DNA of 64,000 nt from an uncultured Clostridia bacterium (GTDB lineage Bacteria > Bacillota > Clostridia > Christensenellales > Borkfalkiaceae): the NCBI GenBank assembly GCA_947589285.1, contig CANPZV010000004.1, positions 1-64,000 of the forward strand, read 5' to 3'. Position numbers and translations under genes: made by a program. The notes beneath the pieces are model-generated. The model did not search any database. It was not told the origin of the DNA and saw only the letters and a list, made by a program, of their open reading frames with translations. Shown here one piece after another: positions 5,493 to 59,336 of the stretch. How positions within the stretch are numbered: position 1 is the first letter of the stretch; each line of letters starts with the position of its first letter.

Positions 5493-6496
5493 ATCTTCTC
5501 CTGCATCGCGCGCTTGATCGTCTCCACGACTTCATCGACGGTCATGTCGGACGTGTCGATGAGGACGGCGTCCTCCGCCTGTTTGAGGGGGGCGATCTCG
5601 CGGTTCATATCCTGTTCGTCGCGGCGGATCATCTCCGCCTTCAGCGTCTCGAAATCGACTTCCGTGCCCTTGGCCTTCAACTCCTCATGCCTGCGCCTTG
5701 CGCGTACCTCGGGCGAGGCGGTCAGATAGAATTTGAAGTCCGCGTCGGGCAGGACAAACGTGCCGATATCCCTCCCGTCCAGCACGCAGGACATCTTTCC
5801 CGCGATCTCCCGCTGTTTTTCGACGAGGTGCATTCTCACGCTCGCGTGTTTCGAGACGGTGGACGAGGCGAGTGAGACGGCATTTTGGCGGATCGCCTCG
5901 GAGACGTCCCTGCCGTCGAGGAGGGTCCTCTGCACGCCGTTCTCATAAACGACGTCGAGCTTGACGTCCCGCATGAGGGCGACGACCGCGGCCTCGTCGG
6001 TGAGGTCGATCCCCTCTTCAAGTCCCTTGAGGGCGCATGCGCGGTACATCGCGCCCGTATCGAGATAGAGAATGTTGTATTCCTTGGCGAGCAACTTTGC
6101 GACGGTGGATTTGCCGCTCCCCGCGGGGCCGTCTATCGCAATGTTGAACTTCCCCGCGATGTCCTTCCGCAGAACTTTTGCGCCGCGGAGATAGACGTGC
6201 GCGGGAGCGATATTTTTTTCCACAAACAACATACAGCGGATGCAGAGAGGAAGTCCCCCGTCGATATCGGGTTCCTGCGCGGAGAAGAGAGAACAGCCGA
6301 TAAAGCCCGCCTCCCGCGCGGCCTTGGCGGGGTAATAGGAATGGATATCGGAAGTGCTGGAAAAGACAAGGCTCACCACCTCATCCCGTTTGAGAGAATT
6401 TCTGCTCTCGATCTGTTCAAGGAGTTCCGAAACGGCCCTTTGGATCTCCTCCTTTGTGTCGCTCGCAATGGTCGTAGCACCCCGAATTACAATCAT
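5489..6496 (-). CDS. AroH-type chorismate mutase fused to cytidylate kinase
   Basis: N-term IRGATTIASDTKEEI..SAQEPDIDGGLPLCIR (AroH); C-term FNIAIDGPAGSGKSTVAKLLA..LDTGAMYRA..DGRDIGTFVLPDADFKFYLTA (Cmk). Confidence 0.92.
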   Translation of the reverse strand: MIVIRGATTIASDTKEEIQRAVSELLEQIESRNSLKRDEVVSLVFSSTSDIHSYYPAKAAREAGFIGCSLFSAQEPDIDGGLPLCIRCMLFVEKNIAPAHVYLRGAKVLRKDIAGKFNIAIDGPAGSGKSTVAKLLAKEYNILYLDTGAMYRACALKGLEEGIDLTDEAAVVALMRDVKLDVVYENGVQRTLLDGRDVSEAIRQNAVSLASSTVSKHASVRMHLVEKQREIAGKMSCVLDGRDIGTFVLPDADFKFYLTASPEVRARRRHEELKAKGTEVDFETLKAEMIRRDEQDMNREIAPLKQAEDAVLIDTSDMTVDEVVETIKRAMQEKI

Positions 6497-6562: not shown

Positions 6563-7786
6563 TCACTTCGCGCCGACCGATTTTCCCGCCGCATAGCCCG
6601 TGGAAAAGGCGATCTGAAGATTGAATCCGCCCGTGAAGGCGTCAACGTCGAGGACCTCGCCGCAGAGGTACAGCCCCTTGACGAGTTTGCTCTCCATGGT
6701 CTTGGGATCGACCTCCCTGAGATCGACCCCGCCCGAGGTCACGACTGCCTCGCCGAATCCCCGCAGGGAGACGGGAAAGAGCGGGAAACGCTTCAGAGCG
6801 GAGAGGAGACGCCCTCTCTCCTCCTTCGTGACCGCATTTGCCCGCTTTTCGGGCGGAATGCCTGCAAAATTGAGGATATGAATGCCCAAACTTGCGGGCA
6901 AAAGGCCGCGGATGACGCTCTTCATCTGCTCGTTTTTGCGCTCCGAGAGGTCGCGGAGAAGCCTGCCGTCCAGCATTTTGTCGTCGAGCGCGGGCTTGAA
7001 ATCGACGCTCAGCTCCACCGCATCGACGGGAAGCCGATTGATGAGCGCGGAGAGCGAGAGAATGAGCGGCCCGCTTACCCCATAGTGGGTGAAGAGTAGC
7101 TCGCCAAGCTCCGAAAAGAGTATTTTCCCGTTGTATTTTGCCGTGAGAACGGCGTTCTTCACCGAAACGCCCTGCACAGAGGAGAAGTTTCCCTTCAGGT
7201 CAAGCCCCGTCAGGGAGGGTCGGCAGGGAACGACGGTGTGCCCGAGAGCGCGGGCGAACTTGTACCCGTCCCCCGTCGAACCCGTGGACGGATAGGAAAG
7301 TCCCCCCGTCGCAAGAATGACAGCGTCGCACGGAATTTGCCCTTTTGCGGTAATTATGCCACGCATAGTACTATGCAAAACGTCCAAATCCAAGACTTCG
7401 GTGTTGAGTTCAAAGCGGACGCCTGCTCTTCTGCACGCTTTTTCGAGCGTTTTTGTGACGTCGCTCGCGTGGTCGGAGACGGGAAAGACGCGGTTCCCGC
7501 GCTCCACTTTCAGGGGGAGACCCTCCCCCTCGAGGAACTCCATGAGGCTCTGCGGCGGGAAACGGTAGATCGCGCCGCGCAGAAACTTTTCTCCGCGGAC
7601 GACGTTTTGAAGGAACTCTTCGGGCGGACAGTCGTTCGTGACGTTGCAGCGGCCCTTCCCCGTGATGTAGAGTTTCTTCCCGAGTTTTTCGTTTTTCTCG
7701 ACGAGGGTGACTTCGTTCCCGCTCTCTGCGGCGGCATAGGCCGCCATGAGACCGCTCGCTCCCCCGCCGATGACGGCAACTTTCAT
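6563..7786 (-). CDS. HI0933-like NAD(P)/FAD-dependent oxidoreductase
   Basis: VAVIGGGASGLMAAYAAA; GRCNVTN; ILATGGLSYPSTGSTGDGY; GEVLDVDAFTGGFNLQIAFSTGYAAG. Confidence 0.92.
   Translation of the reverse strand: MKVAVIGGGASGLMAAYAAAESGNEVTLVEKNEKLGKKLYITGKGRCNVTNDCPPEEFLQNVVRGEKFLRGAIYRFPPQSLMEFLEGEGLPLKVERGNRVFPVSDHASDVTKTLEKACRRAGVRFELNTEVLDLDVLHSTMRGIITAKGQIPCDAVILATGGLSYPSTGSTGDGYKFARALGHTVVPCRPSLTGLDLKGNFSSVQGVSVKNAVLTAKYNGKILFSELGELLFTHYGVSGPLILSLSALINRLPVDAVELSVDFKPALDDKMLDGRLLRDLSERKNEQMKSVIRGLLPASLGIHILNFAGIPPEKRANAVTKEERGRLLSALKRFPLFPVSLRGFGEAVVTSGGVDLREVDPKTMESKLVKGLYLCGEVLDVDAFTGGFNLQIAFSTGYAAGKSVGAK
7352..7382 (+). repeat. Dispersed ~31-bp palindromic element, copy A (inside the HI0933-like gene)
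   Basis: aattatgccacgcatagtactatgcaaaacg; cf. copies at 14803, 42038, 49822, 59092. Confidence 0.7.
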
Positions 7787-14583: not shown

Positions 14584-14611
14584 AAAAAAACCCGCCGAAT
14601 GCGGGTTTTTT
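14584..14611 (-). terminator. Terminator of tRNA-Trp
   Basis: aaaaaaacccgc-cgaat-gcgggttttttt. Confidence 0.85.
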
Positions 14612-14685
14612 GGCAGGGGAGACGCGACTCGAACACGCAACAGACGGTTTTGGAGACCGTTGCTCTACCATTGAACTACTCCCCT
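14611..14685 (-). tRNA. trnW: tRNA-Trp (CCA anticodon), CCA tail encoded
   Basis: Reverse complement AGGGGAGTAGTTCAATGGTAGAGCAACGGTCTCCAAAACCGTCTGTTGCGTGTTCGAGTCGCGTCTCCCCTGCCA folds as cloverleaf; loop CTCCAAA. Confidence 0.95.
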
Positions 14686-14802: not shown

Positions 14803-14833
14803 AATTATGTCACGCATAATACTATGCAAAACG
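14803..14833 (+). repeat. Dispersed palindromic element, copy B (intergenic, 3' of galE)
   Basis: aattatgtcacgcataatactatgcaaaacg. Confidence 0.75.
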
Positions 14834-14841
14834 TGAAAAAT

Positions 14842-15855
14842 TCAGTTTTCGTACCCGTTTGGATTGTTCTTCTGCCAATTCCACTGGTCGATGCACATCT
14901 TCTCGAGGTCGTACTGCGCCCTCCAGCCGAGTTCCCTTTCGGCCTTTTCCGCGGAGGCATAGCAGGTCGCAATGTCCCCCGCTCTCCGCGGTTTGATGAC
15001 ATACGGCAAGTCCTTTCCGCACGCCTTGGAGAATGCCTTGATCATGTCAAGCACGCTGTAACCGTTCCCAGTGCCCAAATTGTAGATATAGACGCCCGCG
15101 CTCTTCAGCTTTTCAATGGCGGCAACGTGCCCCCGCGCGAGGTCCACAACGTGGATATAGTCCCTCACTCCCGTTCCGTCGGGCGTGGGATAGTCGTTCC
15201 CGAACACGCCGATCTCCTTCAGCTTCCCGCTCGCGACCTGTGCAACGTAGGGCATGAGATTGTTGGGGATCCCCTTCGGATCCTCGCCGATCAGCCCGCT
15301 CTCGTGCGCTCCGACGGGATTGAAATAGCGCAGGAGCGCGACCGTCCATTCGCCGTCGGAAGTGTAGAGGTCCTTCAGGATATTTTCCTGCATCACCTTC
15401 GTCGCGCCGTAGGGATTGGTCGTCGGGTTCATTTTGCTCGTCTCCTTGAGCGGAAGTTCCGCGGGGTCTCCGTAGACCGTTGCCGAGGAGGAAAAGACGA
15501 TCTTTTTGACGCCGAATTTTTTCATCGTCTCGATGAGGACGAGCGTGGAAATGAGATTGTTGTCGTAGTATTCGACGGGCTTCTCCACGCTCTCGCCGAC
15601 GGCTTTGAGGCCCGCAAAGTGGATGACCCAATCGATGTCATACGATGTGAAGATAAGCTCGAGCGCGGCGCGGTCGCGGACGTCGTTTTCGTGGAAATAG
15701 ACTTTCCTTCCCGTGATCTTTTCCACCCGTGCGATCGCCTCGCGGCTCGAATTGCTCAAATTGTCGATGACGACGACGTCGTACCCCGCATTCAGGAGTT
15801 CAACGACCGTGTGGGAGCCGATAAATCCCGCTCCGCCTGTTACCAAAACTGTCAT
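14842..15855 (-). CDS. galE: UDP-glucose 4-epimerase
   Basis: VLVTGGAGFIGSHTVVELLNAGYDVVVIDNLSNS; SSSATVYG; NPYGATK. Confidence 0.96.
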   Translation of the reverse strand: MTVLVTGGAGFIGSHTVVELLNAGYDVVVIDNLSNSSREAIARVEKITGRKVYFHENDVRDRAALELIFTSYDIDWVIHFAGLKAVGESVEKPVEYYDNNLISTLVLIETMKKFGVKKIVFSSSATVYGDPAELPLKETSKMNPTTNPYGATKVMQENILKDLYTSDGEWTVALLRYFNPVGAHESGLIGEDPKGIPNNLMPYVAQVASGKLKEIGVFGNDYPTPDGTGVRDYIHVVDLARGHVAAIEKLKSAGVYIYNLGTGNGYSVLDMIKAFSKACGKDLPYVIKPRRAGDIATCYASAEKAERELGWRAQYDLEKMCIDQWNWQKNNPNGYEN

Positions 15856-41656: not shown

Positions 41657-41995
41657 TCATTTCCCGACGGAATCGGGGGTCAGGAGAACCCCTTCGTAGT
41701 ACGCTTCTATCTTGACAGAGGCGAGGATCGAAACATGGGCCTTGAACTCCCCTCCGTCGATCGTCGTGCGGAGCGTGAAGCGGGAGGCGTGGCTGTCTGC
41801 AAACTGCTCTTCGAGAATATTATTGACAAAAATCTGCGCCCCGTATTTATAAGTGACGCGGACGACGACCTGTTTCCCCTTCACGGTATAGATATGGCTT
41901 CGCGAGAGCGTGCGGATCCGTACAATGACGAGGATCACAAAGACAATAAGCATTGCGACGCCGACGCCAAGCGTAATGCCCAAAGATTCAGGCAT
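41657..41995 (-). CDS. Hypothetical membrane protein with small beta-rich C-terminal domain
   Basis: N-term TM; VKGKQVVVRVTYKYGAQIFVNNILEEQFAD. Confidence 0.7.
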   Translation of the reverse strand: MPESLGITLGVGVAMLIVFVILVIVRIRTLSRSHIYTVKGKQVVVRVTYKYGAQIFVNNILEEQFADSHASRFTLRTTIDGGEFKAHVSILASVKIEAYYEGVLLTPDSVGK

Positions 41996-42037
41996 AAAAA
42001 ACTCCTCCTAACACAAAAAAACGACAATTTTATATGT

Positions 42038-42068
42038 ATTATGTCAGACATAATACTTTGCAAAACGG
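42038..42068 (+). repeat. Dispersed palindromic element, copy C (intergenic)
   Basis: attatgtcagacataatactttgcaaaacgg. Confidence 0.75.
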
Positions 42069-48478: not shown

Positions 48479-49702
48479 TCACGGCAACAGTTTTTTCAAA
48501 ATCTCGCGGCAGGCGAGCTTGCAATGCTCATAGGTGAGGCCGCCCTGAAAATAGGCGGTGTACGGCTTCCTGATCGGCGCGTCTGCGGAAAGTTCGATGC
48601 TCGCCCCCGCAACAAAAGTCCCCGCTGCCATTATTACCTTGTCGTCATACCCCGGCATGTCCCACGGCTCCAGCTTGACGAAGGAATCGACGGGAGAGAC
48701 GTCCTGCACCGACTGAATGAAGTCGCAAAGCTCTTTTTCGGTATCAAAGCGGATGGCGCGGGTGATGTCGGCAAGGGGCTTGTCCGTCGCGGGAAAGTTC
48801 TCATAGCCGAGCAGTTCCATACACCTGCCGATGAGAAGTCCCCCCTTCAAGGCCTGCCCAACGACGTGCGGCGCGAGGAAAAATCCCTGAAAATAGGGCT
48901 GATAGCCATAGGCGTAGGAGCCGATCTCCCCGCCGACAGAGGGCGCGGTGAGGCGATTTTCACAGAGGCGGATAAATTTTTCCCTCCCCGCGATGTAGCC
49001 GCCCGTGGGAGCGAGGCCGCCCCCGGGGTTCTTGATGAGGCTCCCGACAATGAGATCCGCCCCGACTTCCGTCGGCTCCGTCCTCTCGACGAATTCGCCG
49101 TAGCAGTTGTCAACGAAGAGACAGCCCTCAAAGCCTTGGGCGCGGGCGAAACGGCACAGCTCCCCGATCTCACCGACGGTGAAGGCGTCGCGGAGTTCAT
49201 ATCCGCGCGAACGCTGGAGATAGAGCATGTCCACCCGCTCCGTCCTGAGCTTATCCCCGACGGCGGGAAAGTCGATCTTGCCGTTCGGGAGCAGGGGAAG
49301 CGTCTCCGCTCCGACGCCAAAATCGGCTAAGGACCCGTTGCCCTCCCCCCGAATGACGGGGCGGATCGTGTCATACGGCTCCCCCGTGACAAAGAGGATG
49401 CGGTCATGAGGACGGAGGACGCCGAAGAGCGCGACGGTCAGCGCGTGGGTCCCCGAAAGAAGGGCGGGAGAGACGATCGCCGCCTCCGCACCGAAGGCAC
49501 GCGCATACACGTTGCAGAGAGCGGTCCTGCCCTCGTCGCCGTAGCCATAGCCCGTCGTGGGCGAAAAGTGGCGCAGGGCGATCATCTCGGCCCTGAACGC
49601 CTTCAAAACTTTCTCCTGATTGAAGAGAGAAATTTCCTCTATCTCCTCAAAACGCGGCCTAAGGTCACGTTCTGCCCTTGCGATCAATTCATCAACTTTC
49701 AT
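48479..49702 (-). CDS. PLP-dependent YnbB/'aluminium resistance' family protein
   Basis: SPTTGYGYGDEGRTALCNVYARAFGAEAAIVSPALLSGTHALTVALFGVLRP; LIKNPGGGLAPTGGYIAG. Confidence 0.9.
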   Translation of the reverse strand: MKVDELIARAERDLRPRFEEIEEISLFNQEKVLKAFRAEMIALRHFSPTTGYGYGDEGRTALCNVYARAFGAEAAIVSPALLSGTHALTVALFGVLRPHDRILFVTGEPYDTIRPVIRGEGNGSLADFGVGAETLPLLPNGKIDFPAVGDKLRTERVDMLYLQRSRGYELRDAFTVGEIGELCRFARAQGFEGCLFVDNCYGEFVERTEPTEVGADLIVGSLIKNPGGGLAPTGGYIAGREKFIRLCENRLTAPSVGGEIGSYAYGYQPYFQGFFLAPHVVGQALKGGLLIGRCMELLGYENFPATDKPLADITRAIRFDTEKELCDFIQSVQDVSPVDSFVKLEPWDMPGYDDKVIMAAGTFVAGASIELSADAPIRKPYTAYFQGGLTYEHCKLACREILKKLLP

Positions 49703-50600
49703 ATATTCTAACGACCTCTCTTGCTGCCTCGTCGATCCCGCACGGTTCGATCCTGTGCAGATTTTTCATTTTTTTGAAGAATGTCTCCTGTCTCTTGGCA
49801 TAATTGCGGGTATTTTTCTTGATTATGTCTGACATAGTACTCTGCAAATCGCCGTTTTTCAAGCCTTCGACGACCTCTTTGTACCCGATCCCCTGCATAC
49901 ACTGCGCGTTTTCGGGGACGCCGCTTTGCAAAAGCGTGCGAACTTCCTCCAAAAGCCCCCGCCGAAACATCTCATCGACGCGCTCTTCGATGCGGCGGTA
50001 CAACACCTCGCGCGGGAAGGCGAATTCGAACGCCTCAAAGGGATAGCGCGGAACATCCCCGTCCCTTTGGTCGGACTTCTTCCGCCCCGTCAGTTCATAG
50101 ATCTCGAGGGCGCGGATCACCCGCTTGATGTCGTTTGCGTGGAGCTTTTCCGCACTCTCGGGATCGACCTCTCTCAGGCGTTCGTGCAGTCTCTCCCGCC
50201 CCTCTTCCGCCGCGATCCTCTCGTATTTTCCCCGTACAAACGGGTCGGCGGGCGCACCTCCGAAGGTGTGTTCATAGAGGATGGAATTGAGGTAAAACCC
50301 CGTTCCTCCGCAAAGAACAGGCGTCTTTCCGCGGTCAAGGATGTCCTCGGCGATCGGGACGGCCATGCGCTCGAAGTCGCTCACCGAAAAATTCTCCGTG
50401 GGCGCGGCGACGTCGATCATGTGGTGCGGGATCCCCCTCCGCTCCGCCGCAGATGGCTTCGCCGTGCCGACGTCGAGACCGCGGTAGATCTGGAAGGCGT
50501 CGCAGGAGATGACTTCGCCCCCGATCAGGCGGGCGCATTCCACCGCGAGCGCGGTCTTTCCCGAGGCCGTGGGGCCGCAGATGACAAGGAATTTTTTCAT
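49692..50600 (-). CDS. miaA: tRNA dimethylallyltransferase
   Basis: FLVICGPTASGKTALAVECA; SCDAFQIYRGLDVGTAKP; IGYKEVVEGL; ATG 50600. Confidence 0.95.
   Translation of the reverse strand: MKKFLVICGPTASGKTALAVECARLIGGEVISCDAFQIYRGLDVGTAKPSAAERRGIPHHMIDVAAPTENFSVSDFERMAVPIAEDILDRGKTPVLCGGTGFYLNSILYEHTFGGAPADPFVRGKYERIAAEEGRERLHERLREVDPESAEKLHANDIKRVIRALEIYELTGRKKSDQRDGDVPRYPFEAFEFAFPREVLYRRIEERVDEMFRRGLLEEVRTLLQSGVPENAQCMQGIGYKEVVEGLKNGDLQSTMSDIIKKNTRNYAKRQETFFKKMKNLHRIEPCGIDEAAREVVRIYES
49822..49852 (+). repeat. Dispersed palindromic element, copy D (inside miaA)
   Basis: attatgtctgacatagtactctgcaaatcgc. Confidence 0.7.
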
Positions 50601-52459
50601 ACGATGCGTTTGAAGAGCTTTTCCATTTCGCTCCGCTTCACCTTGACGGCGACGGGCCGCCCGTGCGGGCATTTGAGTCCCATGTCCCCGTCCATGCGTT
50701 CAAGGAGTTTCCTCGCCTCCTCATCGGTCAGATACTCCCCGCCTTTCACGGCCGCCTTGCACGCCGCCGAGGCGAGTTTATCCTTCATAAGGTCGGAGAG
50801 CCTGATCGCACGCAATGATTCCATCGAGGAAAGCACTTCGCCGAAGAAGGCGTTGAGATTGATGTTCATGAGATCGGCGGGCACGGCGGAGACCTTGATA
50901 CAGCCGCTTCCGAACTCCTCGATCTCAAAGCCCATTTCCCTCAGTGCGGGAAAATTTTTTGTGAGGAAGGCGAACTCCGCCGCATTCACCTCCAAAAGGT
51001 AGGGCACGAGCATGGGCTGGGAGACGACGGCCCTTGCGGCAATTTTCTCCCGCAGACGGTCGTAGATGAGCCGTTCATGCGCCGCGTGCTGATCAACAAT
51101 GTACGCCTCGTCCCCCGCCTCATAGAAGAGATAGGTGTGGAAGAGTTCCCCCTTGAAGGTCAGGTTTTTCACGTCCACGCGCTGTTGGGCGGCCGCATGT
51201 TCCTCCTCGCGCAAGAGCCGCTGATTTTCGGCAAACACGTCCTCGCTCGTCTCGACAGTGGCAGACGTCTCGGGCGCATGGACGGCCATGCGGATGGAGT
51301 CGGGCGTGTAGAAGCGCGGCTCCGAGGGGCCGTTTTTGTTGGGAGAAATGTCGAATTCCAGCTCCTTTTTGGCCTCTTCATAGGTCATTGTGCTGTCAGG
51401 GACAGGCACAGACGGCGCGGCTGCCCGCTCCCGCTGCTCGCGTTCAAGCTCCTCCTTGACGCCGACAAGGTACTCCACCGCCCTCGAATTGCCGTCGAGG
51501 ACGGACGAAATGACGGAATAGACGCTTCCGTAGATGATCTGATTGTCCTGAAATCTCACATCTGCCTTGTTCGGGTGGACGTTGACGTCAACGATCTCCT
51601 GCGGGACGTCCAAGAAGAGTACATAGAAGGGGTACTGCCTCTTCATGAGGTATGCGGCATAGGCGTTCGTGACGGCCGCCGCGACCGTCTGATTGACGAC
51701 GTACCGTCCGTTGACGAACAGGCTCTGATAGGTCCTGTTCGGCTTGGAATAGTTCCTGTTTCCGATGAAGCCGTGCAGGAGAATGCCGTGCTTGTCGGCC
51801 GAGATCTCGAGGCAGTTGTCGAGCGTTGAAGCCCCGTAGACGACGGCGATGGCGGAGGGTAGCCCCTCGCCGAGGGAGCGGAATTTGAGTTTTCCGTTCG
51901 CGGTGTAGGTGAAGGAGATCTCGGGGCGGGAGAGAATGAACCGCGCCATCATGTTGGTGACGTCCCCCTCCTCCTGGCTGTCCGATTTCAAAAATTTCAG
52001 GCGGGCGGGCGTGTTGTAGAAGAGATCACAGACGGTGACCTCCGTCCCCTTTGCACCTGCGGAGGGTGTGACTTCGCCCAAGACGCCTCCCTCGCAGGCG
52101 AGCGAGAAGGCCCCCTGCCCCGCGTCGGAAACGATGCGCATTCTCGAGACGGACGCAATGGAGGCAAGGGCCTCGCCGCGGAATCCGAGAGTGGAGACGG
52201 TGAAGAGGTCCTCCGCGGCAGAGAGCTTGCTCGTCGCATGGGGAGAGTACGCCTTGAAGAGTTCGTCCCTCCCGATGCCGCACCCGTTATCGACGACGCG
52301 GATCTTCTGTTTGCCGCCGCCCTCGATCTCGACGGCGATCTCGCTCGCCCCCGCGTCAATGGCGTTTTCAACGAGTTCCTTGACGACGGAATACGGCCGA
52401 TCGACGACCTCACCCGCCGCGATGCGGTTATAGACGTCGGGGGACAGGATATTGATCAT
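50597..52459 (-). CDS. mutL: DNA mismatch repair protein MutL
   Basis: INILSPDVYNRIAAGEVVDRPYSVVKELVENAIDAGA; GFRGEALASIASVS; ATG 52459. Confidence 0.97.
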   Translation of the reverse strand: MINILSPDVYNRIAAGEVVDRPYSVVKELVENAIDAGASEIAVEIEGGGKQKIRVVDNGCGIGRDELFKAYSPHATSKLSAAEDLFTVSTLGFRGEALASIASVSRMRIVSDAGQGAFSLACEGGVLGEVTPSAGAKGTEVTVCDLFYNTPARLKFLKSDSQEEGDVTNMMARFILSRPEISFTYTANGKLKFRSLGEGLPSAIAVVYGASTLDNCLEISADKHGILLHGFIGNRNYSKPNRTYQSLFVNGRYVVNQTVAAAVTNAYAAYLMKRQYPFYVLFLDVPQEIVDVNVHPNKADVRFQDNQIIYGSVYSVISSVLDGNSRAVEYLVGVKEELEREQRERAAAPSVPVPDSTMTYEEAKKELEFDISPNKNGPSEPRFYTPDSIRMAVHAPETSATVETSEDVFAENQRLLREEEHAAAQQRVDVKNLTFKGELFHTYLFYEAGDEAYIVDQHAAHERLIYDRLREKIAARAVVSQPMLVPYLLEVNAAEFAFLTKNFPALREMGFEIEEFGSGCIKVSAVPADLMNINLNAFFGEVLSSMESLRAIRLSDLMKDKLASAACKAAVKGGEYLTDEEARKLLERMDGDMGLKCPHGRPVAVKVKRSEMEKLFKRIV

Positions 52460-57036: not shown

Positions 57037-57155
57037 ACAGAGTAATTATAACATAAAGCAAATGTTTTTTCAATCATCTTTTTGCAGAAAATCGCAAGTT
57101 GAAGCCAAAAAGGTATTTTTGCTTAATTTTTGCGCACTCACACATACTGTCACGG

Positions 57156-59336
57156 ATGAAAAAAGTACTCATTGCGATCTTCATTCCGCTCGGCATTCTT
57201 GCCGTATTGCTGCTCGGCGGGATCTTTTGGTATTTGGGCGCGACGGCGGGCGTAGAGCTTGACGGCGAGAAGCTGAACCTCTCCACCGCATGCGTCAGGG
57301 TCTATGACGGAGAGGGCAAGCAAGTGGAGTCGGCGATGAGGAGAAGCGTCTCCTTGGACGATCTGCCCGCGCACGTCCCGCAGGCGTTCGTCGCCGTCGA
57401 GGACAAACGCTTCTATACCCACCACGGCCTCGACTATCGGCGCATCGGCGGGGCGATCCTCAAAAATATCCGCACGTTCTCCTTCCGCGAGGGAGCGTCC
57501 ACGATCTCCCAACAGCTCATCAAAAACACCCACCTCACGAGCGAAAAGACGATCGACCGAAAATTGAAGGAAGTCAAGCTGACGCGGCAGCTCGAAAGGC
57601 GGTATTCCAAGGATCAGATCATCGAACTCTACCTCAATTCCATCTACTTCGGGCACGACGTGTTCGGCGTTGCGGCGGCGTCCGACTTTTACTTCGGAAA
57701 AGAGGCGGAAGAGCTTACCCCCGCCGAGAGCGCGATGCTCGCCGCCCTCGTCCGCTCCCCCAACCGCTACTCCCCCTTCCGCAACGCGGAGGCCTGCCTC
57801 TCCCGCCGCAACTTTGTGCTGAACCTCATGAATGAGCAGGGATTTTTGGACGGCGAAGCCTATCAAGAGGCCGTCCAAGTGCCCCTCCCCGCCCTTCCCT
57901 CCAAGACAAAGGGCGGCGACAGCTATCTCTCCCTCGTCTTTGATGAACTTGCGGAGATCTTCCCCGAAGCCGACGAAGGAGACTTCGGCTCGATCCGCAT
58001 CTACACCTTTCTCGACAGGACCTTGCAGAACGAACTCGAAAGCGTGCGGGCGGATTCGGACGTCTGCGCACTCGTGCGGGACAACAGGACGAACGGCGTC
58101 AAGGCGTTCTATTCCACCTGCGGCGTGCTGAAACGGCTCCCCGCCTCCACCTTAAAGCCCCTCCTCGTCTACGGCCCCGCGATCGAGGAGGACCTCATCT
58201 GCCCCGCGACGCCAATTTTGGACGAGAGGACGGATTTTTCGGGTTATTCTCCCGATGACGCGGGCGGCGCGAGCGGGAAATACATGAGCGCGCGGTACGC
58301 CCTCTCCCACAGCGTCAACATTCCCGCCGTCAAGATCTTGAACGCCATGGGCTGCGAGCGGGCCACGGCCTATCTCGACAGAATGGGACTGCACATCGAC
58401 AGGGAGGATTGGTCCCTCGCCCTCGCCTTGGGCGGAATGAGGGAGGGCTTTTCGCTCCCCGCGCTTGCCGACGGGTACGCCGTCCTCGCAAACCGCGGAA
58501 ATTACGCCCCCTCAAAGGTCATCTCCCGCATCGAAAACGACAAGGGGAAGGTCATCTATGAGTATCGGCCGCGGGAGACGAGAGTGTTTTCGGAGGAGAC
58601 GAGCTACCTTGTGAGCGACATGCTGAAAACCGCCGTCAAGGAGGGCACGGCGAAAAAGCTCAAAAATCTCCCCTACGACGTCTGCGCAAAGACGGGCACC
58701 GCCGAGGGCAAAACGGGCAACACGGACGCCTACACGATCGCATATACCTCGGAGGACGCCGTGGCGGTCTGGCTCGGCAACAGGGACAACTCCGAAATTA
58801 CGGCAAGCGGCGGAGGGCTTCCCGCAAACATCGCGCTCGACATTCTCAAAGCTGTCTATCGGACGCATGCGCCCGCCCCCTTTCCGCCCTGCGACGGCGT
58901 CGAGGAACTCAAAATCGACATGGAGGAGTACGAAACCAACCACAGGATCCTCCTCTCCGACCCCAATTCTCCCTTTCTGACGGACAGAAAGGAACTGTTC
59001 AAAAAAAGTACCGCGCCCACAGAGATGAGTACGCGATATTCCCTTCCTAAGATCGAAATGCCGACGATTTCGGTCACAAATGGGACCGTAAACATAGTAC
59101 TATGTCAGACAGAGTACTATGATTATGTGATAAAAAGAGAAAATCGCGGCGTCGAAACCACGATCTACAGCGGAAAATATCAGAAGTGCATCAGCGACAG
59201 TTCGGTAAAGCAGGGAGAAAGCTACCGTTACAGCGTGACCCCCGTCTATAAAAATATCGAGGGAGAGACGATCTTTCTCCCCCTCGTTCGGATCAGTTCC
59301 TCCCCTCTTCTTCCCGACGAATGGTGGAACGATTAA
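57156..59336 (+). CDS. Penicillin-binding protein 1 family (glycosyltransferase/transpeptidase)
   Basis: AVEDKRFYTHHGLDYRRIGGAI; GASTISQQLIKN; STLK, SHSVN, AKTGTAEG. Confidence 0.93.
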   Translation: MKKVLIAIFIPLGILAVLLLGGIFWYLGATAGVELDGEKLNLSTACVRVYDGEGKQVESAMRRSVSLDDLPAHVPQAFVAVEDKRFYTHHGLDYRRIGGAILKNIRTFSFREGASTISQQLIKNTHLTSEKTIDRKLKEVKLTRQLERRYSKDQIIELYLNSIYFGHDVFGVAAASDFYFGKEAEELTPAESAMLAALVRSPNRYSPFRNAEACLSRRNFVLNLMNEQGFLDGEAYQEAVQVPLPALPSKTKGGDSYLSLVFDELAEIFPEADEGDFGSIRIYTFLDRTLQNELESVRADSDVCALVRDNRTNGVKAFYSTCGVLKRLPASTLKPLLVYGPAIEEDLICPATPILDERTDFSGYSPDDAGGASGKYMSARYALSHSVNIPAVKILNAMGCERATAYLDRMGLHIDREDWSLALALGGMREGFSLPALADGYAVLANRGNYAPSKVISRIENDKGKVIYEYRPRETRVFSEETSYLVSDMLKTAVKEGTAKKLKNLPYDVCAKTGTAEGKTGNTDAYTIAYTSEDAVAVWLGNRDNSEITASGGGLPANIALDILKAVYRTHAPAPFPPCDGVEELKIDMEEYETNHRILLSDPNSPFLTDRKELFKKSTAPTEMSTRYSLPKIEMPTISVTNGTVNIVLCQTEYYDYVIKRENRGVETTIYSGKYQKCISDSSVKQGESYRYSVTPVYKNIEGETIFLPLVRISSSPLLPDEWWND
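59092..59129 (-). repeat. Dispersed palindromic element, divergent copy E (inside PBP1 3' region)
   Basis: acatagtactatgtcagacagagtactatgattatgt; shares GTCTGACATAGTACT with copy D on reverse complement. Confidence 0.55.

Follow-up and report, generated by a model that had tools for sequence, protein, structure and literature searches.

Tus-ter of E. coli and RTP-Ter of B. subtilis are the two fork-trap classes with which the element studied here has to be compared, and both tus and rtp are autoregulated via a site in their own promoter. The Ter sites of B. subtilis are about 30 bp long and lie near the terminus, oppositely oriented on its two sides. RTP dimers occupy two half-sites, B being strong and A weak, and a fork that reaches B first is blocked (PMC10331603). 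For E. coli, where the polar sites flank dif and some of them lie within genes, 14 predicted ter sites are listed (PMC10331603). Other sites of the terminus region are the XerD-binding SMC-unloading sites of B. subtilis, which lie around the terminus near dif and are linked to Xer, the symmetric matS sites of the MatP system, with a palindromic core and found only in the terminus region, and the short G-rich KOPS/SRS octamers, whose orientation switches at dif. In the difSL and difH systems dif is linked to a single recombinase gene (PMC2731167).

The window analysed here, a stretch of 64 kb (C4:1-64000), belongs to an assembly of 1.29 Mb in 62 contigs which is 86% complete. It contains several copies of an element with the consensus ATTATGTCWGACATARTACTATGCAAA, derived from 73 oriented copies, which comprises about 27 bp and consists of a 17-bp palindrome and a one-sided ACTATGCAAA arm. 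In these 73 copies the palindromic core holds 27 bits and the arm 15 bits, which agrees with the core and arm of the original prediction, and opposite the arm there is no more than a weak A/T tract. A second palindrome, CATAGTACTATG, overlaps the first and is formed by the arm. Since full cores are frequently found in tandem near dif, about 18 bp apart, the arm resembles a second core in degenerate form, and the tandem cores suggest adjacent dimer sites. Fully symmetric copies occur as well.

At up to three mismatches the pattern ATTATGTCNNACATAATACTNTGCAAANCG has exactly four matches in the 64-kb window, all on the plus strand (at 7353, 14804, 42038 and 49822), and none in 100 dinucleotide shuffles of the window. 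With a symmetric fifth copy this amounts to four oriented and one symmetric copy where 0 are expected, so that both the dispersed palindromic element with at least five copies and the common orientation of four of them could be confirmed. The first copy (7353..7379, plus strand) lies inside a gene for an aminoacetone-oxidase-family FAD enzyme (6563-7786, minus strand) and encodes VLHSTMRGI. The second (14804..14830, plus strand) is situated just beyond the stop codon of galE (14842-15855, minus strand); a tRNA-Trp(CCA) gene (14611-14685, minus strand) adjoins it. The third (42038..42064, plus strand) is intergenic, upstream of a gene for a predicted membrane protein of 112 aa (41657-41995, minus strand), and is partly symmetric with a minus-strand register at 42028. 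The fourth (49822..49848, plus strand) is found in the 3' part of miaA (49692-50672, minus strand), where it encodes LQSTMSDII. A fifth copy had been predicted near 59092 as an inverted one. It does exist (59089..59125, inside a penicillin-binding protein gene at 57099-59336 on the plus strand), but it is near-symmetric and no strand can be given for it, since the weight matrix scores 36 and 32 bits on the two strands.

A scan of the whole assembly also speaks for the element. We found 17 matches at up to three mismatches and 0 with the reversed control pattern, and the weight matrix gave 41 hits of at least 14 bits at about 26 distinct places compared to 0-1 in the nulls, which is far above chance. 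The places are unevenly distributed, as contigs C2, C4 and C5 hold 21 of the 26 but together account for 16% of the assembly (p = 6e-13). In a first survey all of the 37 genomes of the genus carried the element with about 5-28 matches each, whereas copy numbers across all genomes vary from about 5 to 88; the genomes analysed were partly selected for carrying it, and they are not all independent, since G298 and G026 are apparently one genome and some of the named loci have sequence records in common with G034. The element is present in several genera of the family and missing from many others, and the 24 further families of the order that were surveyed yielded a single match, in one genome. The element system may have been lost or have diverged in those members of the family and order that lack the pattern. 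In a database scan the carriers fell among uncultured Clostridia; their named relatives are Candidatus Borkfalkia and Candidatus Gallimonas. Two other families of the same order, f31 and f19, show an enrichment of the bare core TATGTCWGACATA as well; the ACTATGCAAA arm is missing from the f31 core copies that were inspected. Viral contigs contained no exact match of the element, and a phage or viral origin was rejected. No description of such an element was found in the literature searched.

On contig G014:C7 the copies change from the minus to the plus strand where the cumulative GC skew peaks and the gene strands converge, which identifies the switch point as the terminus of replication. The centre of the switch region is occupied by a tyrosine recombinase gene. 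Its best NCBIfam model is XerS, but at 199 bits it stays below the cut-off of 267, and the recombinase is therefore called XerS-like and not XerS. A second Xer was searched for in the assembly of the window and was not found. Just upstream of xer an inverted repeat interrupted by 6 bp of spacer, CTATTCGYAAAA-N6-TTTTRCGAATAG, is present exactly once per genome in 24 of 24 genomes (C5:47455-47484 of the window's assembly, outside the window, L293 and 23 relatives); similar inverted repeats adjoin xer in many other genera of the family. Due to the single copy, the inverted repeats, the hexanucleotide spacer and the linkage to a single recombinase gene this repeat is, by its architecture, dif, albeit of unusual sequence, and dif was located by means of it. 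The arrangement of one recombinase gene and one such dif is that of the XerS/difSL type. A search with the canonical dif consensus of B. subtilis, Firmicutes and E. coli gave no convincing match. That the element cluster beside xer is itself dif was considered and dropped, because the separate inverted repeat with its 6-bp spacer is present once per genome. Two members of the family, G066 and G071, gave no match to the XerS-like recombinase, which nearly all the others possess.

The copies crowd around dif, on one contig out to at least about 130 kb, and the dnaA contigs contain none among the matches listed. On six dif contigs the arm points away from dif in 53 of 60 asymmetric copies (p = 8e-10, although this and the other p-values overstate the number of independent events, as related genomes have inherited sites in common). 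Among the most asymmetric copies these are 48 of 52, and 37 of 40 if G299 is left out. Two of the seven exceptions lie within 300 bp of dif, two are near-symmetric, and three are clearly asymmetric copies of G299. The rule is obeyed by 6 of 8 copies in head-on genes and by 28 of 33 intergenic copies, and gene strand is therefore not the explanation. The left part of C5 is found on opposite sides of dif in G014 and in G300, which like G297-G299 is not necessarily a member of the window's genus; apart from near-symmetric ones, the copies face away from dif in both. Every genome used is a draft assembled from metagenomes, and where a distance to dif extends past one contig it was estimated by synteny. 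Judged by gene order, the window matches the interval from +14 to +91 kb from dif in G300 and thus one side of dif; clear counterparts of at least three of the five window copies (7353, 49822, 59089) are present in that interval. A comparison of strand and replication direction, as proposed in the original prediction, thus reveals that the copy orientation flips at dif.

Copies inside genes allow a direct comparison of occupied and empty positions. In the FAD-enzyme gene the copy of this genome and its relatives fills the same codons as are present in a site-less ortholog of equal length, without any indel. Copies in dxs, in miaA and in a gene which we take, from its family, to be spoIIIAE-like align without gaps as well; they encode variants of LHSTMSDII in unrelated proteins, and their positions are common to several genomes (spoIIIAE-like in 20 loci, dxs in 8 and miaA in 8). 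These data show that the in-gene copies arose without insertion. REP and MITE palindromes are expected to cause a length difference between occupied and empty orthologous sites, and the possibility of a miniature palindromic mobile element, which had been raised for the window, is herewith refuted for the in-gene copies. A dispersed palindrome whose copy number differs that much between genomes resembles such an element, but codons are replaced at unchanged length, many positions are shared, the dnaA contigs are free of copies, no conserved boundary exists outside the binding site and viral contigs are devoid of an exact match; we regard a mobile element as highly improbable. Third codon positions are 82-94% identical inside the sites and about 50% outside, values which are inflated because most loci were picked for carrying a site, and they support a constraint on the in-gene copies at the DNA level. 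In dxs, miaA and similar cases a DNA signal shapes the sequence of the protein. In several genes (L188, L195, L204, L239, L262 and others) a copy extends over the start codon, and some copies themselves provide that codon; unrelated proteins thereby receive the N-terminus MSDI.

As the copies are centred on the terminus, follow dif in their orientation and are under constraint at the level of the DNA, the suggestion of a protein-binding or segregation site was strengthened. The suggestion of an uptake sequence was not, as the copies are few and restricted to the terminus side of the chromosome. Judged from these sequence properties, we consider it very probable that in this family the terminus (dif) is marked on both sides by the element as a conserved, polar binding site of a protein.

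The strict polarity at dif, the absence from the dnaA contigs and the combination of a strong and a weak site point to a one-way device. The strong core is on the dif side and the weaker arm on the origin side, which would be the layout needed by a fork trap if the logic of RTP applies. By analogy with RTP-Ter the element might be a fork barrier, to which we assign somewhat less than an even chance. One dimer of a binding protein would sit on the strong core and another on the weaker arm, in the manner of RTP at its B and A half-sites. Coming from the origin side, a fork would reach the weak arm first and pass, while a fork that has run past dif would reach the strong core first and be stopped. 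Taken together, the copies would surround dif and the XerS-like recombinase gene with a redundant fork trap. With more reserve, we propose a third fork-trap class that may have evolved independently of Tus-ter and RTP-Ter; it would have an XerS-like/dif locus at the centre of tens of redundant polar sites, its own terminator protein and a selection so strong that it dictates amino acids in conserved proteins. Common to RTP-Ter are the size, the position near the terminus, the opposite orientation on both sides and, as far as the sequence tells, the strong and weak dimer half-sites; different are the sequence, the much higher number of sites and that no autoregulated terminator gene was found. 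With ter of E. coli the element shares polar sites that flank dif and partly lie within genes, but ter lacks a palindromic core and is bound by a monomer. Homologs of RTP (PF02334) were found in 0 of 37 genomes of the genus and homologs of Tus (PF05472) in 0 of 11 genomes, both at E<=1, while the controls from B. subtilis and E. coli were found.

Besides the absence of RTP and Tus, several observations count against a fork trap. In the densest case up to 88 copies at a spacing of 5-10 kb far exceed any known fork trap, the few clearly asymmetric copies of G299 point in the wrong direction, and no gene was found that both codes for a DNA-binding protein and has a promoter with a conserved copy. 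When the binder was sought by adjacency, the recurrent neighbours were housekeeping or membrane genes and no regulator stood out. The lexA gene, which is encoded beside dif, is not favoured either, as its promoter by inspection has no conserved element.

The main competing explanation is a terminus-organising or SMC-unloading site comparable to the XerD-binding sites or to matS/MatP, whose polarity would stem from SMC or segregation machinery that comes in from the side of the origin and whose binder could be the XerS-like recombinase itself. The copies are indeed dense across the terminus region and centred on xer/dif, the arm ACTATGCAAAA by eye bears a loose likeness to the dif arm ACTATTCGYAAAA if a gap of 2 bp is allowed, and XerD unloads SMC at the B. 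subtilis terminus, as cited in PMC12322038. Such a role, however, does not require the strong polarity seen here, and Xer and dif are distributed across family and order including many genera from which the element is missing; this explanation is rather unlikely, but is to be taken seriously. Unlike the element with its one-sided arm, matS is symmetric. An orientation switch at dif is also typical for KOPS, and FtsK gamma domains are present (two over the cut-off in the assembly of the window), which is why sequences that guide FtsK/SpoIIIE and steer DNA pumping toward dif were considered. Separate G-rich octamers that are strongly skewed toward dif exist, though (AGAGGGGA 67:1 and GAAGGGGA 86:5; dif contigs G000:C5, G014:C7, G034:C3, G300:C1 and G299:C7), and are candidate KOPS/SRS. 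Because of these octamers it is improbable that the element, which with 27 bp is much longer, palindromic, rare and restricted to the terminus, serves this purpose.

Hardly more probable is an ordinary operator of a transcription regulator with many sites. It would account for the palindromic core, for the overlapped start codons and for the copy arrays upstream of a dgt-dnaG-rpoD operon, but many copies lie inside genes or just after stop codons, the neighbouring genes have no common function, and the orientation of the copies tracks dif and not the gene. These arrays consist of two to five copies upstream of dgt (C2:73171-73230; L122:1501-1640; L184 at about 5590-5720), which is followed by genes resembling dnaG and rpoD.

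If the element is a fork barrier, a large group of uncultured gut Clostridia would have a further independent solution, a terminus-centred polar system that does without Tus and RTP, and this would help to show the purpose of fork-trap systems, whereas the SMC or terminus-organising explanation would mean a new polar terminus-organising or SMC-unloading code. Under either reading the sites are precise enough for fishing out the binding protein and testing the mechanism. The dif contig of G299 (G299:C7) additionally carries a CRISPR-like array of about 81 repeats (GTCGCACCCC...GGGGTGCG...) at L347:67-5465.
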